A DNA stretch of 6,673 bases from Bacteroidales bacterium (GTDB lineage Bacteria; Bacteroidota; Bacteroidia; Bacteroidales; ML635J-15). The stretch covers positions 1 to 6,673 of the forward strand of contig JAGOEF010000090.1 of assembly GCA_017997855.1 (NCBI GenBank), written 5' to 3'. Of this stretch, positions 1 through 6,673 are shown one piece after another (the first letter of the stretch is position 1; every line of letters begins with the position of its first letter). The notes under the pieces were generated by a model, which made no database searches, was not told the origin of the DNA, and saw nothing but the letters and a program-made list of their open reading frames with translations. The position numbers and the translations under genes were made by a program.

Positions 1-3000
1 CACTGTCGGACAATCCGCCATCAACTTCGATGACTATTTCGTATTGGTTGCTTGCCGACCATTCTCTGACGTATTCAATTTTGCGTATTGTTTCAGGTAC
101 AAACGATTGTCCGCCCCTTCCGATAGGTACCCCCATGATTAAGAGATGGTGCAGATCAGATTGTTTCATTTTTTCGAGCAGTGCACCCGTATATACTTTT
201 TCGTTGATTGTTAGCACTACTCCGGGAATGCAATCTTTCTGGCGAATGGTTTCAACCCCGTATTTCCACGAGTAGGTGTTGTCGTAAGCCTCGGGGTGCA
301 GATAAATTAACGATTGTTTAATTGCAGCCAGCCGCGACACATACGATTTTCCATTGCCGGCAAATGGTTTTTTTACCATGAGATGTAGGTGTGTCGTTAT
401 GTGCGGAAAATACTTTTGTAAATACGTTAGTTTTTCAAACCCGTCGAGGCTGCGCGAAATATATTCTCCATCGCCGATGTCGATATGGAAATGGGTAATT
501 CCTGTCGTAATAAGCCGCTTTACAAGTCCTGAACTGAACACCCCGAAAGGTACTTCAATCATTGATGCCAGATATGTTGCTTTTTTCTGATTGTTTTTTT
601 TGCGATGTCTGAGTTTTTCCATCGCGTTCATAATCAGTGTAAAGTCATCGTCGGGCAGATAATAGTGAGATTGGCGGAACCATTGCTGTTCGCTTTCTTC
701 CATACGGAATCCGACACCCGCATCCAGCATGAGTTTGAGTTCGGCCCATAAACTTTCGGCTACTGCGGCTTTGGCTTTATTGGCTATTTCGGGCTGAATT
801 CCGGGTAAGGATTTTTTAAGATCCGATTGCGAAGTGCCCAATGATTTGCGAACGGGTTGAGGCAGTCCGTTAACCAGTGCAAACATAAACTTGCCGGCAA
901 AGTTGACGCGGATACAACCATGTAGCACCAGTTCACCCACAGAATCGTACGGAGTAAAGGATGTACCATGGAGTACATTCCCCAGTACTCCAAAGGGAGT
1001 GCATGCATTTTTGATTTTTTCGGATAATTCCGGGTCGAGCCGGTTATGCAGCCGGTGATGCAAAGTTCCCAACCAGGGGCCGAGCAGGTATTGCTTCCCG
1101 TGTTTTTCAGAATTAAGTTGTTGTGTAATGCTTTTAATAATATCGGTATACTGCGAAACGGCAAGCATGTGGGCTAGATTTTCGAAATATTTCTCATCAC
1201 CGAGGTATATTTCTATGTCGCCGTCGAAAATCGGAATTTCGGTAAAAATTCGATTCAATTGTTCGCCGAAACGTTCCGAAACAGGTTTTAATGATTTGTT
1301 GAACAGTGCAGTCAGATCGATGCAATACGATTTTATCCAATGATTTCTTGCTGCTTCTTTCAGGAAATCGTGACCGTTGCTGTTTACTTCAGCTTGTATC
1401 ATGGCATGGTCAACCCCTAAGCTCCATAGGGGTATACGCTGGTGCGGATGCTGCTGCAGGAACCGGATAAGTTGCTTTCTGATTGATTGGGCCATGGCTT
1501 CGGCACCCGAAACCTGCAGGTAGCCCGGCGATTCTTTGGTGCCCAGGGCATTCAGGCTGGCCTGAAGTCCAAAAGCCGCTGAATTATCCGAAAAATATTC
1601 AAAATAGGCCGATACATCAAGACCGCTGATCCCGAGGTCGTACAGGCTGAGGAACGGGATTGCCTGTCTGCCTGAAACCGAGAGGGCAAAATAAAGTTCC
1701 TCGAGTGTAGCCGGTAACGAATCGATATATGATCGTGCGGTCACATCAGGTGCAATTTCGATATCCGGGCCCGAGTTGCGTATTGCAATGGTTAAAATTT
1801 TCTTGGCAGTAGTCGAAAGTTGTGGGTAAATCTTGCCAAGTTGCAGAAAATCAGTGTTTACGGTGAAAAATAGTTCGCGATCTTTGCACACACACCCGCT
1901 ATGTTTCAGTAACTCAAAATCCACTGGGTTAGGATATTCCATGTGAATCAGCGAAAATTTACCATACGCTTTGCAAAACCGATCGAAATTATCAATCAGC
2001 GCTTTTCCGGAAATGTTGCACGCAAAAATATATCGGTTAATATGTTGTGTGGCAAAGCCCGACAGGGACAGAAATCGGGATAGAAAAGAGGCTTCTTCCC
2101 GGGTTTCGGGTCGTAAAACGGCAAACGACGAATGGGTTAAAAATTCGGGAAGGTATTGCATAGCTGCCGGACTGTGCTGATAATATTGCCTGTTGCAGTT
2201 TTTCAGGTCATGTAAAAATCCGGGTATCAGCAGGCGGTTGGGACCCAGTATATAATGCCGGCTTTTGTAAACACGGGTCAAATCATATTCTTCCACCTGA
2301 GAACCCGATAGTGTGGCATCGGGAGCACAGGTAACCTGCCATATTTTTCGGGTAGATTGGTTTTGAAAAACCAGAATCAGGTTTTTGTCGGTACCCGAAA
2401 CCAGCCAAAGCCCATCCCCGTCAGTTATGCCATATACATAACTGAAATGATTGCTATCGTGGGTATAGGTGTTCAAAAAATCAGCATGCATTTGGTTTTT
2501 CGACAGAATAATGCTGAGGTTTTCTTCAAAACCGGCATCGCGGTACTGCGGATGTATTCCCCAAACCTGAACGAAACGGTTATGATAGTCAACAATCAAT
2601 CCGAGTATCGGTACCTTAGGCTCATGCTGTGAAGACGGGGTTGTGTCCTGCTTAAAAAGTGTCAATACTTTTTCATACCCGATACGTTGTTGATTTTCGA
2701 AATTCTCATTCACGAAAATGTGTTCAAACCATGCCGTGTTGAGCACAAAATAATGCCTGAAAGAACTACGGTCAACAAAGTTGAAATAGTCTGTAGTGCG
2801 GTCTGCGTCGCGGTAGCTGCCTACGCGGGCAATTTTTCGACGGAGTAATTCTGCCGGGCTTGCCACCAGTAAATAGTTCAGATCGAAAAACCTGCGCAGT
2901 TTCGGATGATGGGTATAATGGCCTTCAACAATAATCACCATTCGGGGTAGCAGGTCAACTTCGGCATTACCCGTGCAGCGTCCGGCATCGTCGCGGTTAT

Positions 3001-3346
3001 ACAACCCATTCAATTCGATATGCTCCGAACTGAAATTCCTGAACCTGTAAGCCTCGACCTTTTTCAGAAAATCAGCAGCCAGATCGAGGTTCATGTGTTC
3101 ATCAGCCTCATATTCGAAAGCAGTTTGGCGGTTCAGGTATTTGTCGAGTTGCTCAAGCCTGCTTTCACGGGGCAGCAATGTCCAGTCGAGGCGGTACACG
3201 AAAACAGGAATATGTTTTGCGACCAGTGCCGCAGTCAACGCATCGGCAAGGGTGGTTTTTCCAGAGGCAGTAGGTCCGTCGATGCCAATAATACAAAAGT
3301 TGCCATTGAACCGAATCGACGATTGAATATATTTTAGCAGGTTCAT
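1..3346 (-). CDS. Multidomain sugar-phosphate enzyme: P-loop kinase + class II aldolase + ribulose-phosphate 3-epimerase (3' end off window)
   Basis: One uninterrupted frame runs from ATG (3346-3344) to the window edge, 1115 codons with no stop. Residues ~15-217 resemble uridine kinase/phosphoribulokinase P-loop kinases: Walker A GPTASGKT (24-31), Asp54 where uridine kinases have the DDFY acid, VEGHY (140-144), then an Arg-rich RRKIARV lid-like helix (169-175). Residues ~243-555 are unassigned. Residues ~556-850 follow the class II fructose/tagatose-bisphosphate aldolase pattern: AIPFLSLYDL (562-571), LGVDH with Asp646/His647, CIDLT, GTLH with His763, VLHG with His793, then IRVN. Residues ~926 onward match ribulose-phosphate 3-epimerase: HIDIGDG (His954, Asp956), HLHLMV (His988), GRGGQSF, IEVDGG (Asp1109). 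About 30-40 epimerase residues are probably missing beyond the window. No signal peptide or membrane segment is seen, so it is likely cytoplasmic. It lies 15 bases behind the membrane-protein gene, probably in the same operon. The start has no clear Shine-Dalgarno, but no in-frame ATG lies between it and the upstream stop. Domain families are confident; substrates and overall reaction are unknown. Confidence -1.
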   Translation of the reverse strand, partial: MNLLKYIQSSIRFNGNFCIIGIDGPTASGKTTLADALTAALVAKHIPVFVYRLDWTLLPRESRLEQLDKYLNRQTAFEYEADEHMNLDLAADFLKKVEAYRFRNFSSEHIELNGLYNRDDAGRCTGNAEVDLLPRMVIIVEGHYTHHPKLRRFFDLNYLLVASPAELLRRKIARVGSYRDADRTTDYFNFVDRSSFRHYFVLNTAWFEHIFVNENFENQQRIGYEKVLTLFKQDTTPSSQHEPKVPILGLIVDYHNRFVQVWGIHPQYRDAGFEENLSIILSKNQMHADFLNTYTHDSNHFSYVYGITDGDGLWLVSGTDKNLILVFQNQSTRKIWQVTCAPDATLSGSQVEEYDLTRVYKSRHYILGPNRLLIPGFLHDLKNCNRQYYQHSPAAMQYLPEFLTHSSFAVLRPETREEASFLSRFLSLSGFATQHINRYIFACNISGKALIDNFDRFCKAYGKFSLIHMEYPNPVDFELLKHSGCVCKDRELFFTVNTDFLQLGKIYPQLSTTAKKILTIAIRNSGPDIEIAPDVTARSYIDSLPATLEELYFALSVSGRQAIPFLSLYDLGISGLDVSAYFEYFSDNSAAFGLQASLNALGTKESPGYLQVSGAEAMAQSIRKQLIRFLQQHPHQRIPLWSLGVDHAMIQAEVNSNGHDFLKEAARNHWIKSYCIDLTALFNKSLKPVSERFGEQLNRIFTEIPIFDGDIEIYLGDEKYFENLAHMLAVSQYTDIIKSITQQLNSEKHGKQYLLGPWLGTLHHRLHNRLDPELSEKIKNACTPFGVLGNVLHGTSFTPYDSVGELVLHGCIRVNFAGKFMFALVNGLPQPVRKSLGTSQSDLKKSLPGIQPEIANKAKAAVAESLWAELKLMLDAGVGFRMEESEQQWFRQSHYYLPDDDFTLIMNAMEKLRHRKKNNQKKATYLASMIEVPFGVFSSGLVKRLITTGITHFHIDIGDGEYISRSLDGFEKLTYLQKYFPHITTHLHLMVKKPFAGNGKSYVSRLAAIKQSLIYLHPEAYDNTYSWKYGVETIRQKDCIPGVVLTINEKVYTGALLEKMKQSDLHHLLIMGVPIGRGGQSFVPETIRKIEYVREWSASNQYEIVIEVDGGLSDS

Positions 3347-3361
3347 GGCAAAATGGATTTG

Positions 3362-5836
3362 TTAAAAAAGTCCGACAAGCCGAACCGGTTTATTGTGATG
3401 TTGTGTAATGCCATTTTCGTTAACAAAAATAATTTCTTTCAGGGTATAATAGTCATCTAGCCTGAAAATAATAAATCGGTCGTTTGGAACAGGGGTATTA
3501 ACAGGGGTTGCTATTATTGTATCGTTGTTTAAAGTAATACATTGGACTATAATCGAATGATATACAGCCTCGTTTGCTTCAGTGATAATTTCGATGGTTT
3601 GCCATTTTTTATAATCATTATTCTCAGATTCAATTAAAAAGTGTCCGTCTTTGTTTGTATTAATATCTGTAATTCTATCAATCCCGTTGCGTATGCATTC
3701 TGTTTGAACTGGATAACCATAGTAGGGTATATAGAAGCCTTTAGGATACTTGGTGATAATTGAGTTGTATTGTCGCCAAATCGACTGGGATGGTTTAATA
3801 AACAACACAGGGTTTGCTGCTTTCAGCTGTTGCATGTTGCTAAAATGTCTCTCGACCCTGCCTCCAATTATTATAAGCAATAATAATGATAACCCAAGGG
3901 TTCTCATTATTCCATTAAACTTTTTAGTGATGAGAAACAGAAAGTAAGCCAACAAAGCTATAAATGGAATGAATCCCAGAATGAGATAGCGTTGATACGG
4001 GACAATATATCCCGAATTTATCAGCTCTATAAACGACATTTCTCTGATAACTTGATTGTTGAAAATCAGGAAATTATCAGCCACTACTTTTACAAATAAT
4101 ATGGCACTTGAAACCGAAAGAAAACTCCCAAACAACAAAATAAGTGCAGAGAGCTCTTTGAATTTAATTAACCTGTAGAGCAAATAGCCGTTTATACCCG
4201 CAATAAATATGAACGATACTGAATTTAGAACAATTTGCAGAATGCCACTTTTTGTTTCCGTCAAAAAAATGCTAACGGGAATTCGTATGAAAATATAAAA
4301 CCCATATGTAATTGATCTGATCCACGAAATTCCATTCTCACTGAATTCGCTGATATAGTTTGTTCCCGGTGAATTAAATGTGGCGGATTGACCGCCAATT
4401 ACTGGTTCTTCATTGTAGAGAATCATCTGAATCCCAATGCAAATAAGCATAATTACCGATGCTATTAGGTATCGCTTGTTGTGCATTGCTACTCCGATGA
4501 TAAATAGAAATACGAAAGCAGGAATAAAAATGAAAAAAATTGGTTTCGAAAGAATCAAGCACACAAATGCAATAACAAAGGCGGCATAACCATTCCATGA
4601 CATTTTATCGATGCAAAATAGAAGCAACCACAATAAAACAGCAGCAAAAAATAATCCATCGTAGATGAACCACAATTCAGGAATTGCTATTTTAAATATG
4701 CCGACAGCTAGGCTAATACCAAACCTAAGTGTATCGTTTTCAATAATATTTCTAAATATTTTAAGGTTAAATGATGCAAACATAAATGAACTCAATAGTA
4801 GCGATGTAATCTGCAGCGATTCGGGTAGGTAATTACGAAAACCAAGAATGTTTGCTGTAAACCATGGAATTATGCCCTGAATTAAAGACAAATACCCGGA
4901 ACTGGGTGTAAATAGACTTTCGAAAATAGATTGATAATTAAATAATTTGATGTAAAACTTAACATCTTCTTTGAAACCAATTCCATAAAGGTAAATCTGC
5001 GGAAAAAAAACGAATGCATTTACTACGACAATTGTTAATATCGATAGCCAGAAGAGGCGGTTAAGCTTCAATTTATTTGAAAAGAAAAAACAAAAAATAA
5101 CTGGAAACAGAATGACTGCAACAACCAACATGAATTGAAGATGGGAAAGGTTTAAAAATTGCAGGACATTAGAATCAGCAATTCCGTACAAAATTCCAGG
5201 AATCAGCGAAAGCAAAATGGGTATGAAAAATCGTAAATAGTTGCTCCTAATAAAATAATATATTCCGGTAAGGATTATACCAGTTCGTGATATTATCAAT
5301 TTACGTTTCTTAATAATTTTACGCAACAAAATTAAAGAAAGAAAAGCCAGCATGCTGATGCCAATGATTTTTAAACCGGCAAATAGTATGTCAATTATCC
5401 TCGGATATAACATATCACTAAAATTGACGTTTTTGATGTCCTTTAATTTGTTAGCCAGTGAATATTTGGGGTAATACGTTGGCATTATCATATACATATC
5501 ATAACCTTGAACAGCTAGGGCTTTTGAGTCAAGAACAATTGCTTCGTTGCGATATACGAGGCTAATTTTAATTTTGCTTGTGTCGCCGCTGATGAAAATG
5601 TTTCGGCCATAGCGATTGTTTAGGTTATAGCAGGAACCTGATGTGTGCTTGTTTAGGTTTAAACTACCTCCCAAGGGTGACTCTGCGCTTACATTTACTA
5701 CTTCGGAAGAATCAATAATAACTAAAATCTCCGGCGAAATATTGACCCGGTTAAGGTAAAGCAAGATCAATCCGGTAATAAACAATAACCTGATAAAGCC
5801 TAACAACAACGTGCTTTTTAACGGACCCATAATCAT
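3362..5836 (-). CDS. Multi-pass membrane protein, probable GT-C-type glycosyltransferase
   Basis: About 824 residues with roughly 14-16 hydrophobic segments between residues ~12 and ~660. Segment 1 (~12-29) is followed by a polar loop of about 115 residues (~31-145), probably outside the membrane. The remaining segments are closely spaced, and a soluble tail of about 160 residues follows, also probably extracytoplasmic. After an early helix the chain reads GIGFKEDVKFY (~287-296) and then an aromatic GYLSLIQGIIPWF stretch. An acidic pair in a first large loop followed by such a segment is typical of GT-C enzymes, which use polyprenyl-phosphate sugars or transfer sugars outside the cytoplasmic membrane. 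I cannot name a specific family, and a polymerase- or flippase-like protein is possible. Start: the frame opens with TTG (5839), ATG (5836) and ATG (5830); I chose the first ATG. No good Shine-Dalgarno is visible. It is probably the first gene of an operon with the downstream fusion enzyme. Its sequence is visibly more A/T-rich than that gene. Confidence -1.
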   Translation of the reverse strand: MIMGPLKSTLLLGFIRLLFITGLILLYLNRVNISPEILVIIDSSEVVNVSAESPLGGSLNLNKHTSGSCYNLNNRYGRNIFISGDTSKIKISLVYRNEAIVLDSKALAVQGYDMYMIMPTYYPKYSLANKLKDIKNVNFSDMLYPRIIDILFAGLKIIGISMLAFLSLILLRKIIKKRKLIISRTGIILTGIYYFIRSNYLRFFIPILLSLIPGILYGIADSNVLQFLNLSHLQFMLVVAVILFPVIFCFFFSNKLKLNRLFWLSILTIVVVNAFVFFPQIYLYGIGFKEDVKFYIKLFNYQSIFESLFTPSSGYLSLIQGIIPWFTANILGFRNYLPESLQITSLLLSSFMFASFNLKIFRNIIENDTLRFGISLAVGIFKIAIPELWFIYDGLFFAAVLLWLLLFCIDKMSWNGYAAFVIAFVCLILSKPIFFIFIPAFVFLFIIGVAMHNKRYLIASVIMLICIGIQMILYNEEPVIGGQSATFNSPGTNYISEFSENGISWIRSITYGFYIFIRIPVSIFLTETKSGILQIVLNSVSFIFIAGINGYLLYRLIKFKELSALILLFGSFLSVSSAILFVKVVADNFLIFNNQVIREMSFIELINSGYIVPYQRYLILGFIPFIALLAYFLFLITKKFNGIMRTLGLSLLLLIIIGGRVERHFSNMQQLKAANPVLFIKPSQSIWRQYNSIITKYPKGFYIPYYGYPVQTECIRNGIDRITDINTNKDGHFLIESENNDYKKWQTIEIITEANEAVYHSIIVQCITLNNDTIIATPVNTPVPNDRFIIFRLDDYYTLKEIIFVNENGITQHHNKPVRLVGLF

Positions 5837-5849
5837 CAATCAATTTATA

Positions 5850-5857
5850 CAAATCTA
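5850..5857 (-). promoter_or_regulatory. Possible Bacteroidota -7 element (TAGATTTG) for the minus-strand operon
   Basis: On the minus strand the bases read TAGATTTG, an exact match to the Bacteroidota primary-sigma -7 consensus TAnnTTTG. It lies 13 bases upstream of the chosen ATG at 5836, so the leader would be very short. No TTTG is seen at the usual -33 spacing. A short A/T-rich motif in an A/T-rich gap can arise by chance, so this is tentative. Confidence -1.
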
Positions 5858-5881
5858 CAACGAAATATTCTAATATTTCTC

Positions 5882-5889
5882 TATTTTTG
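5882..5889 (+). promoter_or_regulatory. Possible Bacteroidota -7 element (TATTTTTG) for the radical SAM gene
   Basis: The plus strand reads TATTTTTG, matching TAnnTTTG. Transcription starting a few bases downstream would give a leader of about 30 bases before the radical SAM ATG at 5927. No clear -33 TTTG is present about 19-21 bases upstream. It sits back-to-back with the minus-strand element at 5850-5857, which fits a compact divergent promoter region, but each match is weak on its own. Confidence -1.
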
Positions 5890-5903
5890 AAGGATAGGAC
5901 ACA

Positions 5904-5930
5904 ATGAAAAATAGCCTGATAAAAATATGA
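5904..5930 (+). CDS. Possible 8-codon leader mini-ORF overlapping the radical SAM start
   Basis: ATG at 5904 opens a frame reading MKNSLIKI and stops at TGA 5928-5930. That stop overlaps the ATG of the radical SAM gene (5927-5929) as ATGA, an arrangement common in translational coupling. A purine-rich AAGGA at 5890-5894 lies nine bases upstream, a good Shine-Dalgarno position for this mini-ORF but too far from 5927. If the -7 element at 5882-5889 is the promoter, transcription would begin at or just after AAGGA and the site might be lost. Such a short frame can easily be chance. No function is proposed beyond possible coupling. Confidence -1.
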   Translation: MKNSLIKI

Positions 5931-6673
5931 CAGTTTCGCAAAAATTGGTTGTACTGGTTCAGCCAAGTCACGATACATGGGACAGGTTGTTTGTACGTAT
6001 CCCTGAGTCATTATTGGCAATTGCAGCATTACCTGTAAAGAATGGATACAAGGTAGTAATTATCGACCAGCGAATTAACTCAAACTGGAAGAAGGAGTTG
6101 GCTGCTTGGGTAATGCAAAAACCTATCTGTGTGGGAATTACTACACTTACCGGACCATCAATTTCACATGCCCTTGATGCTGCTGAAATTGTAAAAAGCA
6201 TTGACGCTGATTGCAAAGTAGTTTTTGGAGGAGTTCATGTTACTTTACTCCCGGAACAAAGTCTTTTACATCCTTGTATTGATATTGTGCTTAAGGGTGA
6301 AGGCGATTATGTTTTTGACACATTGCTGAAGGCGCTTGAAAACAAAACAGATTTACATGTTGTCGAGGGTATTTATTTTAAAGAAAATGGGCAAATTGTT
6401 TCTACACCCAATGGTAGCCTAATTACCAATATGGGTGATTTGCCTGATTATCCCTACCATCTGATTGATATGTCGAAATATTCGGCGATGGATATAGAAA
6501 ATGGTAAATCAGTGTCGTTTCAAACCTCAAGAGGTTGTCCGTTTTCTTGCAATTTTTGTGGAAACCCCCAATTGAATCAAAATACATGGAGGGCAATGCC
6601 AATCGCGAAGATTGTTTCGAAAATTGAAATACTGCAATCTGTTTACGGCTTTAATAATTTCTTATTTCTCGAC
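5927..6673 (+). CDS. B12-binding-domain radical SAM protein (N-terminal 249 residues, 3' end off window)
   Basis: The frame opens at ATG 5927 and runs to the window edge without a stop. An in-frame TAG at 5912-5914 rules out a longer start. Residues ~5-140 form a Rossmann-like cobalamin-binding domain as found in BchE-type radical SAM enzymes: KLVVLVQPS at the start, GITTLTG (70-76), VVFGGVHVTLLPE (98-110) and the typical VLKGEGDYVF (121-130). I see no DxHxxG motif, as is usual in this class. The radical SAM core follows, with SRGCPFSCNFCGN giving the CxxxCxxC iron-sulfur cluster cysteines Cys204, Cys208 and Cys211, and a first core strand ending FLFLD at the window edge. Members carry out methylations, cyclisations and other radical chemistry on lipids, cofactors and natural products; the substrate here cannot be read from the sequence. 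It diverges from the minus-strand glycosyltransferase-like/sugar-phosphate operon, so a shared pathway is possible but unproven. Confidence -1.
   Translation, partial: MTVSQKLVVLVQPSHDTWDRLFVRIPESLLAIAALPVKNGYKVVIIDQRINSNWKKELAAWVMQKPICVGITTLTGPSISHALDAAEIVKSIDADCKVVFGGVHVTLLPEQSLLHPCIDIVLKGEGDYVFDTLLKALENKTDLHVVEGIYFKENGQIVSTPNGSLITNMGDLPDYPYHLIDMSKYSAMDIENGKSVSFQTSRGCPFSCNFCGNPQLNQNTWRAMPIAKIVSKIEILQSVYGFNNFLFLD

Follow-up and report, generated by a model that had tools for sequence, protein, structure and literature searches.

A conserved bacterial fusion of a P-loop kinase, a class II aldolase-type barrel and a ketose 3-epimerase with apparently altered substrate pockets

The stretch analysed here (the window) comprises 6,673 nucleotides of a Bacteroidales bacterium contig (JAGOEF010000090.1; assembly GCA_017997855.1), and its minus strand encodes a long fusion protein that is a real, conserved and, judged from its residues, apparently catalytically intact multifunctional enzyme with altered substrate pockets. 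With moderate confidence, we propose that it represents an unnamed conserved family of soluble proteins of about 1140–1330 aa that combine a P-loop sugar kinase with a class II aldolase-type barrel and a ketose 3-epimerase; covalently joined through a middle region and carrying altered pockets, the three units would serve one short ketose route. Distantly related bacteria share this architecture, but its members, where named, are called after one or two of their domains or listed as hypothetical proteins. Because C–C bond chemistry, epimerisation and phosphorylation would be combined on one chain with changed pockets, an unrecognised sugar route is indicated, and the fusion may be of use for making rare sugars.

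Architecture and family of the fusion

The reading frame is open from an ATG at position 3346 to window base 2 (2..3346, minus strand, as for all features of the fusion), giving 1115 aa and running past the window edge. The closest relative (P0001; full length, 1154 aa) is 98% identical; the two differ at 23 of the 1115 residues, and 19 of these changes fall within residues 669–881. By comparison with it 39 C-terminal residues lie beyond the window. Three Pfam domains scored above their curated cut-offs: PRK/uridine kinase at residues 19–183 (E 5.8e-05, 23.4 vs 22 bits), F_bP_aldolase at 595–855 (E 3.1e-07, 30.6 vs 25.5 bits), and Ribul_P_3_epim at 942–1114 (E 2.4e-22, 79.7 vs 21.1 bits). These stand in the order given by the initial annotation, which had described three sugar-phosphate enzyme types in one unbroken frame and drawn their limits (residues ~15–217, ~556–850, and ~926 to the edge) close to those found; it did not name a fourth region at ~245–535.

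Among solved structures, a sequence search matched ribulose-phosphate 3-epimerase (RPE) chains (best E 5.7e-11), while the family profile matched uridine-kinase-like chains (1rz3, E 1.7e-10; uridine kinase, E 2.4e-05) and, weakly, a KbaY-annotated aldolase (8q57, E 0.0041). The AlphaFold2 (AF2) model of the fusion is predicted to fold coherently (predicted local distance difference test (pLDDT) 88.2, predicted template modelling score (pTM) 0.85), and Foldseek/VIA structure comparison gave matches for both barrels; among the 50 Foldseek matches listed, target TM-scores reached 0.89 for RPE and 0.75 for class II fructose-bisphosphate (FBP) aldolases. The aldolase and epimerase folds posited in the initial annotation were thus both found by profile search and structure prediction (Pfam, AF2, Foldseek). 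The middle region (residues 245–535; 1742..2614) of the window protein matched no Pfam model, and folding it alone without an alignment gave a pLDDT of 34.7; we claim no new fold for it, since structure comparison barely tests that region.

Three database searches, each scoring only ~8,000 candidates that shared most words, returned 107 distinct proteins, and the family may be larger than this set. All four regions are present in 97 of the 107 by a coverage criterion, and the remaining ten consist of P0093 and P0094 (see below) and eight proteins that are either shorter or lack part of one or more regions. The majority of rows come without an organism name; the names supplied by the sources include Bacteroidales, Marinilabiliales, Candidatus Carbobacillus, Alphaproteobacteria, Prochlorococcus, Methylomonas methanica, and Endothiovibrio diazotrophicus. 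Source annotations cover one or two domains (“ribulose-phosphate 3-epimerase”, “pentose-5-phosphate-3-epimerase/uridine kinase”, “class II fructose-bisphosphate aldolase”) or read hypothetical. A midpoint-rooted tree shows two broad groups, one of full-length proteins of 1141–1186 aa (with P0027, 1238 aa, beside it) and one of about 1255–1332 aa. When 26 members were scanned against Pfam at E 0.01, the epimerase was matched in 26/26, the aldolase in 25/26, AAA_18 in 22/26, and PRK in 17/26. Pairwise identities calculated region by region correlate (r 0.815–0.945, n = 97), with means of 0.406 for the kinase, 0.230 for the middle region, 0.369 for the aldolase-like barrel, and 0.390 for the epimerase; the parts therefore appear to be co-inherited, with the middle region the least constrained.

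This recurrence bears directly on whether the frame arose by misassembly, or is a non-catalytic relic, as its running off the window edge might suggest. Such an explanation is hardly credible: the 98% identical 1154-aa protein and many full-length relatives come from other records, where the same architecture recurs at 22–59% identity to P0001, which argues that the join is not a product of assembly, and the catalytic residues described below are near-invariant. The earlier view that the fusion looks functional rather than a relic is likewise supported, as the catalytic residues of each of the three units are intact. In the open-access literature searched, which omits most subscription papers, no title or abstract opening describes the fusion, in keeping with the earlier remark that no named enzyme is known to have such an architecture.

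Catalytic residues and substrate pockets

Residues were mapped by alignment to Escherichia coli Udk, FbaA, GatY, Rpe, and AlsE, and each barrel was compared with 32 canonical rows (30 from genomes of one phylum plus two from E. coli). Metal and catalytic residues agree between family and canonical rows in both barrels. Nine pocket positions differ, and at each of them the family residue is seen in 0 of 32 canonical rows; in the canonical structures these positions line the substrate pockets.

The epimerase barrel (residues 922–1115; 2..583), which is of the ribulose-phosphate 3-epimerase type, is cut by the window edge. The family profile aligned with E. coli Rpe at a probability of 99.9%, and its HxD, HLM, and EVDGG motifs fell on the corresponding motifs of the E. 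coli enzyme. In RPE, two His and two Asp are reported to serve metal binding and proton transfer, and three conserved Met to stabilise the intermediate (PMC9978339). The His/Asp set is complete in the family: His954 and Asp956 (479..487; Rpe H34 and D36), His988 (383..385; Rpe H68), and Asp1109 (20..22; Rpe D177) are each found in 101/101 family rows and 32/32 canonical rows. The Met set is incomplete, with Met38 replaced by Gly in 93, Ala in 6, and Ser in 2 of 101 rows, and the other two Met kept in 101/101 and 100/101. Likeness to ribulose-phosphate/D-allulose-6-phosphate 3-epimerases (PF00834) thus extends from the barrel fold and the His-Asp-His-Asp metal set to the Met70 and Met139 equivalents and the GGQxF and DGG motifs, whereas the fusion departs from them at Met38, in Asn45→Arg and Val52→Lys (101 of 101 rows each) and Gly199→Trp (100), in being fused, and in scoring below equivalog cut-offs. 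The Arg and Lys are family-specific residues at the ends of a segment from Arg965 to Lys972 (431..454), where canonical rows carry Asn (32/32) and Val, Ile, Leu, Met, or Phe (32/32); Asp66 is also replaced, by His in 90 rows. Separately, in two members (P0024 and P0026) Ser-Ser-Glu replaces the Gly-Asp-Gly of the HxDxGDG motif of the epimerase, and the epimerase unit may therefore be altered in them.

The class II aldolase-fold barrel (residues 541–890; 677..1726) shares with fructose/tagatose-1,6-bisphosphate aldolases (PF01116; GatY, FbaA, SqiA) the barrel fold, the three zinc His and the catalytic Asp, as well as the Gln and Ser of the QxS motif found in most canonical rows. Profile alignment probabilities were 95.9% for GatY and 69.6% for FbaA. 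Asp646-His647 (1406..1411), corresponding to the catalytic Asp and first zinc ligand (GatY D82/H83), and the third zinc ligand His793 (968..970; GatY H208) occur in 104/104 family and 32/32 canonical rows. The second zinc ligand is the first residue of His763-His764 (1055..1060; each 103/104), aligned with GatY H180 (canonical His 32/32), and is followed by a family-specific His in place of GatY Gly181 (canonical Gly 31/32). Gly818 (893..895; 104/104) replaces canonical Thr (GatY T233; Thr in 30/32, with 2 gaps). The fusion therefore differs from class II aldolases by Gly181→His (103 of 104 rows), Thr233→Gly (104), His80→Gly (102), and Arg257→Lys (104), and Gly181 and Thr233 of GatY are residues of the dihydroxyacetone phosphate (DHAP) phosphate pocket. 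The acidic pair of the VEAELG strand aligns in two ways (Glu712 on Glu132, or Asp710 on Glu134), and we make no claim about it because the alignments disagree.

The P-loop kinase domain (residues 1–230; 2657..3346; PF00485/PF13238; PDB 1rz3) was compared with 11 PF00485 loci, the strongest of the 30 retrieved, and with E. coli Udk, to which the family profile aligned at a probability of 97.0%. With uridine kinase/PRK-type P-loop kinases (PF00485) it shares the P-loop, an Asp after strand 2, and an EG motif. In the P-loop DGPTASGKT (residues 23–31; 3254..3280), D23, G24, P25, T26, A27, G29, and K30 are kept in 105/105 rows (2 gaps), and in the EGHY motif (residues 141–144; 2915..2926) G142, H143, and Y144 are kept in 106/106 and E141 in 105/106 (1 gap). 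It differs from these kinases in an insertion with invariant Glu80 and His84 (105/105 each) and in lacking DHPxAFD and YxxxxHxR, the nucleoside-binding motifs of uridine kinases; both were absent from the 6 family rows inspected and present in the 6 canonical rows inspected (as the variant DHPSAMD for the first motif in E. coli Udk). A plain uridine kinase was considered and dropped because these motifs are missing, and the earlier label “uridine-kinase-like” does not carry over to substrate, as the substrate motifs of uridine kinase are absent from the family rows compared.

These comparisons also bear on a simpler account, in which ordinary housekeeping enzymes (a uridine kinase or phosphoribulokinase, an FBP aldolase, and a ribulose-phosphate 3-epimerase) were fused for channelling. 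The family-level Pfam matches, the canonical metal and catalytic residues, and public annotation as “ribulose-phosphate 3-epimerase” or “class II fructose-bisphosphate aldolase”, for example, all speak for it, whereas the window protein scored far below the NCBIfam cut-offs for rpe (TIGR01163, equivalog; 74 bits, without the last 39 residues, against 212.6), cbbA (TIGR00167, subfamily; 15.7 against 215.6), and udk (TIGR00235, equivalog; 24.8 against 220.3). Together with the missing uridine-kinase motifs and the nine pocket changes, which are present in 90–101 of the 101 rows for the epimerase and in 102–104 of the 104 for the aldolase-like barrel, this makes the housekeeping account improbable. 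As the pocket positions are fixed across the family yet unlike the canonical ones, standard pentose- or ketose-phosphate substrates should not be assumed, and in this respect the initial annotation is not supported as worded. The channelled route to a rare ketose or pentose phosphate that it suggested, and the link to the membrane protein encoded just upstream, are conjecture.

Proposed route and the C4-epimerase alternative

In the route that we favour, all three units would act on a ketose, free or phosphorylated, other than ribulose-5-phosphate or fructose-1,6-bisphosphate: the zinc-dependent aldolase-type barrel would make or break a C3–C4 bond, the metal-dependent epimerase would invert C3, and the kinase would add a phosphate. 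As its pockets differ from those of the known enzymes, the fusion probably synthesises or degrades an unusual sugar. Two gammaproteobacterial members inform the order of these steps. P0093 (Methylomonas methanica; 840 aa, encoded on a contig of 5.05 Mb) and P0094 (Endothiovibrio diazotrophicus; 766 aa) align with both ends of the family profile but lack positions of about 491–913 and 490–954, respectively, which hold the aldolase-like barrel. A FastTree phylogeny that omits the barrel places the two together as a pair nested among barrel-bearing members (local supports outward from the pair: 0.961, 0.254, 0.968, 0.976, and 0.985), and we therefore read their state as one secondary loss. Kinase and epimerase can evidently be retained without the aldolase-like barrel, and the aldolase step therefore probably lies at either the start or the end of the route or can be supplied by another enzyme. 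These natural variants provide a ready test of the role of each step.

Several points weigh against this proposal. The same two members dispense with the aldolase-type barrel altogether, and the full-length P0027 lacks the aligned, otherwise near-invariant His-His pair within it. For each barrel, 30 of the 32 canonical rows come from a single phylum. Several canonical phosphate contacts are made by backbone amides, and changed side chains therefore do not prove that phosphate binding has been lost. Finally, that the three units share a route is something we infer from their sequences.

We rank the aldolase type first, and a serious rival is that the aldolase-like barrel is a C4-epimerase working by retro-aldol/aldol chemistry, like UxaE and tagatose 4-epimerase, which would make the protein a kinase with C3- and C4-epimerases; we regard this as unlikely but worth weighing closely. 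It is possible, though doubtful, that such a chain, with an ATP-dependent kinase and a metal-dependent C3-epimerase next to a C4-epimerase of the retro-aldol type and with non-canonical pockets, would take a common ketose and yield a rare, phosphorylated ketose. UxaE is reported to proceed by retro-aldol cleavage, rotation, and aldol addition using Asp159 and Glu126 (PMC11194214), E. coli FbaA can epimerise fructose 6-phosphate at C4 via Glu182 and Asp288 (PMC5434028), and GatZ/KbaZ have been reported as C4-epimerases with a predicted metal site of two His and one Glu (PMC11907403). In structure comparison the barrel may resemble the tagatose 4-epimerase/UxaE/GatZ branch as closely as it does aldolases, and Gly818, where aldolases carry Thr, resembles the Gly of the UxaE KT(A/S)GT motif (10/10 UxaE sequences). 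On the other side, the Asp-His pair and three His of the barrel fit an aldolase, and profile comparison favours GatY over UxaE and GatZ, the profile match to that branch being weak. By a weak profile alignment and residue spacing, UxaE Glu126 falls on Ala600 (Ala in 102/104), which would leave no equivalent of that Glu. The FbaA Asp288 equivalent is Ala. The two-His/one-Glu site of the GatZ/KbaZ type was not matched in the family, whose third His is present in 103/104 rows.

Distribution and neighbouring genes

A scan of genome contigs returned a single match, a plain epimerase, and not the fusion, and scans of viral contigs returned 0 relatives. In searches of plasmid and phage sequences, no entry covered 80% of the query, and two gave no match at all; among the matches listed (20 of 390, 20 of 35, and 8 of 34), only the epimerase end of the query aligned. 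At E 1e-40 the fusion was found in 0 of 299 genomes of one phylum (that of genome G001, whose contig is labelled uncultured Clostridia), a search that had no positive control and is uninformative.

Upstream of the fusion, an 825-aa polytopic membrane protein is encoded on the minus strand (3362..5839), its gene ending 15 bases before the fusion start; this gene order and spacing suggest a possible operon. A Kyte-Doolittle scan gave 14 hydrophobic segments, and the protein had 0 matches in Pfam/NCBIfam at E 1 and 0 in PDB at E 10. By eye it may resemble GT-C glycosyltransferases. A role in surface-sugar assembly is a guess, and that such genes lie in surface-polysaccharide clusters of marine bacteria is conjecture; a term search of a paper on Pelagibacterales O-chain clusters (PMC11898729) gave no match. 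Neither the neighbouring genes nor the G+C content points to a particular sugar.

Divergent from the membrane-protein gene is the start of a gene for a B12-binding radical SAM protein (5927–6673, plus strand; 249 residues in the window), whose best NCBIfam match, BchE, was far below its cut-off over these 249 residues only (100.6 vs 481.35). G+C content is 45.5% in the fusion gene, 34.5% in the membrane-protein gene, and 38.5% in the radical SAM part, and this sharp contrast across the window (1–6673) suggests a mosaic region.

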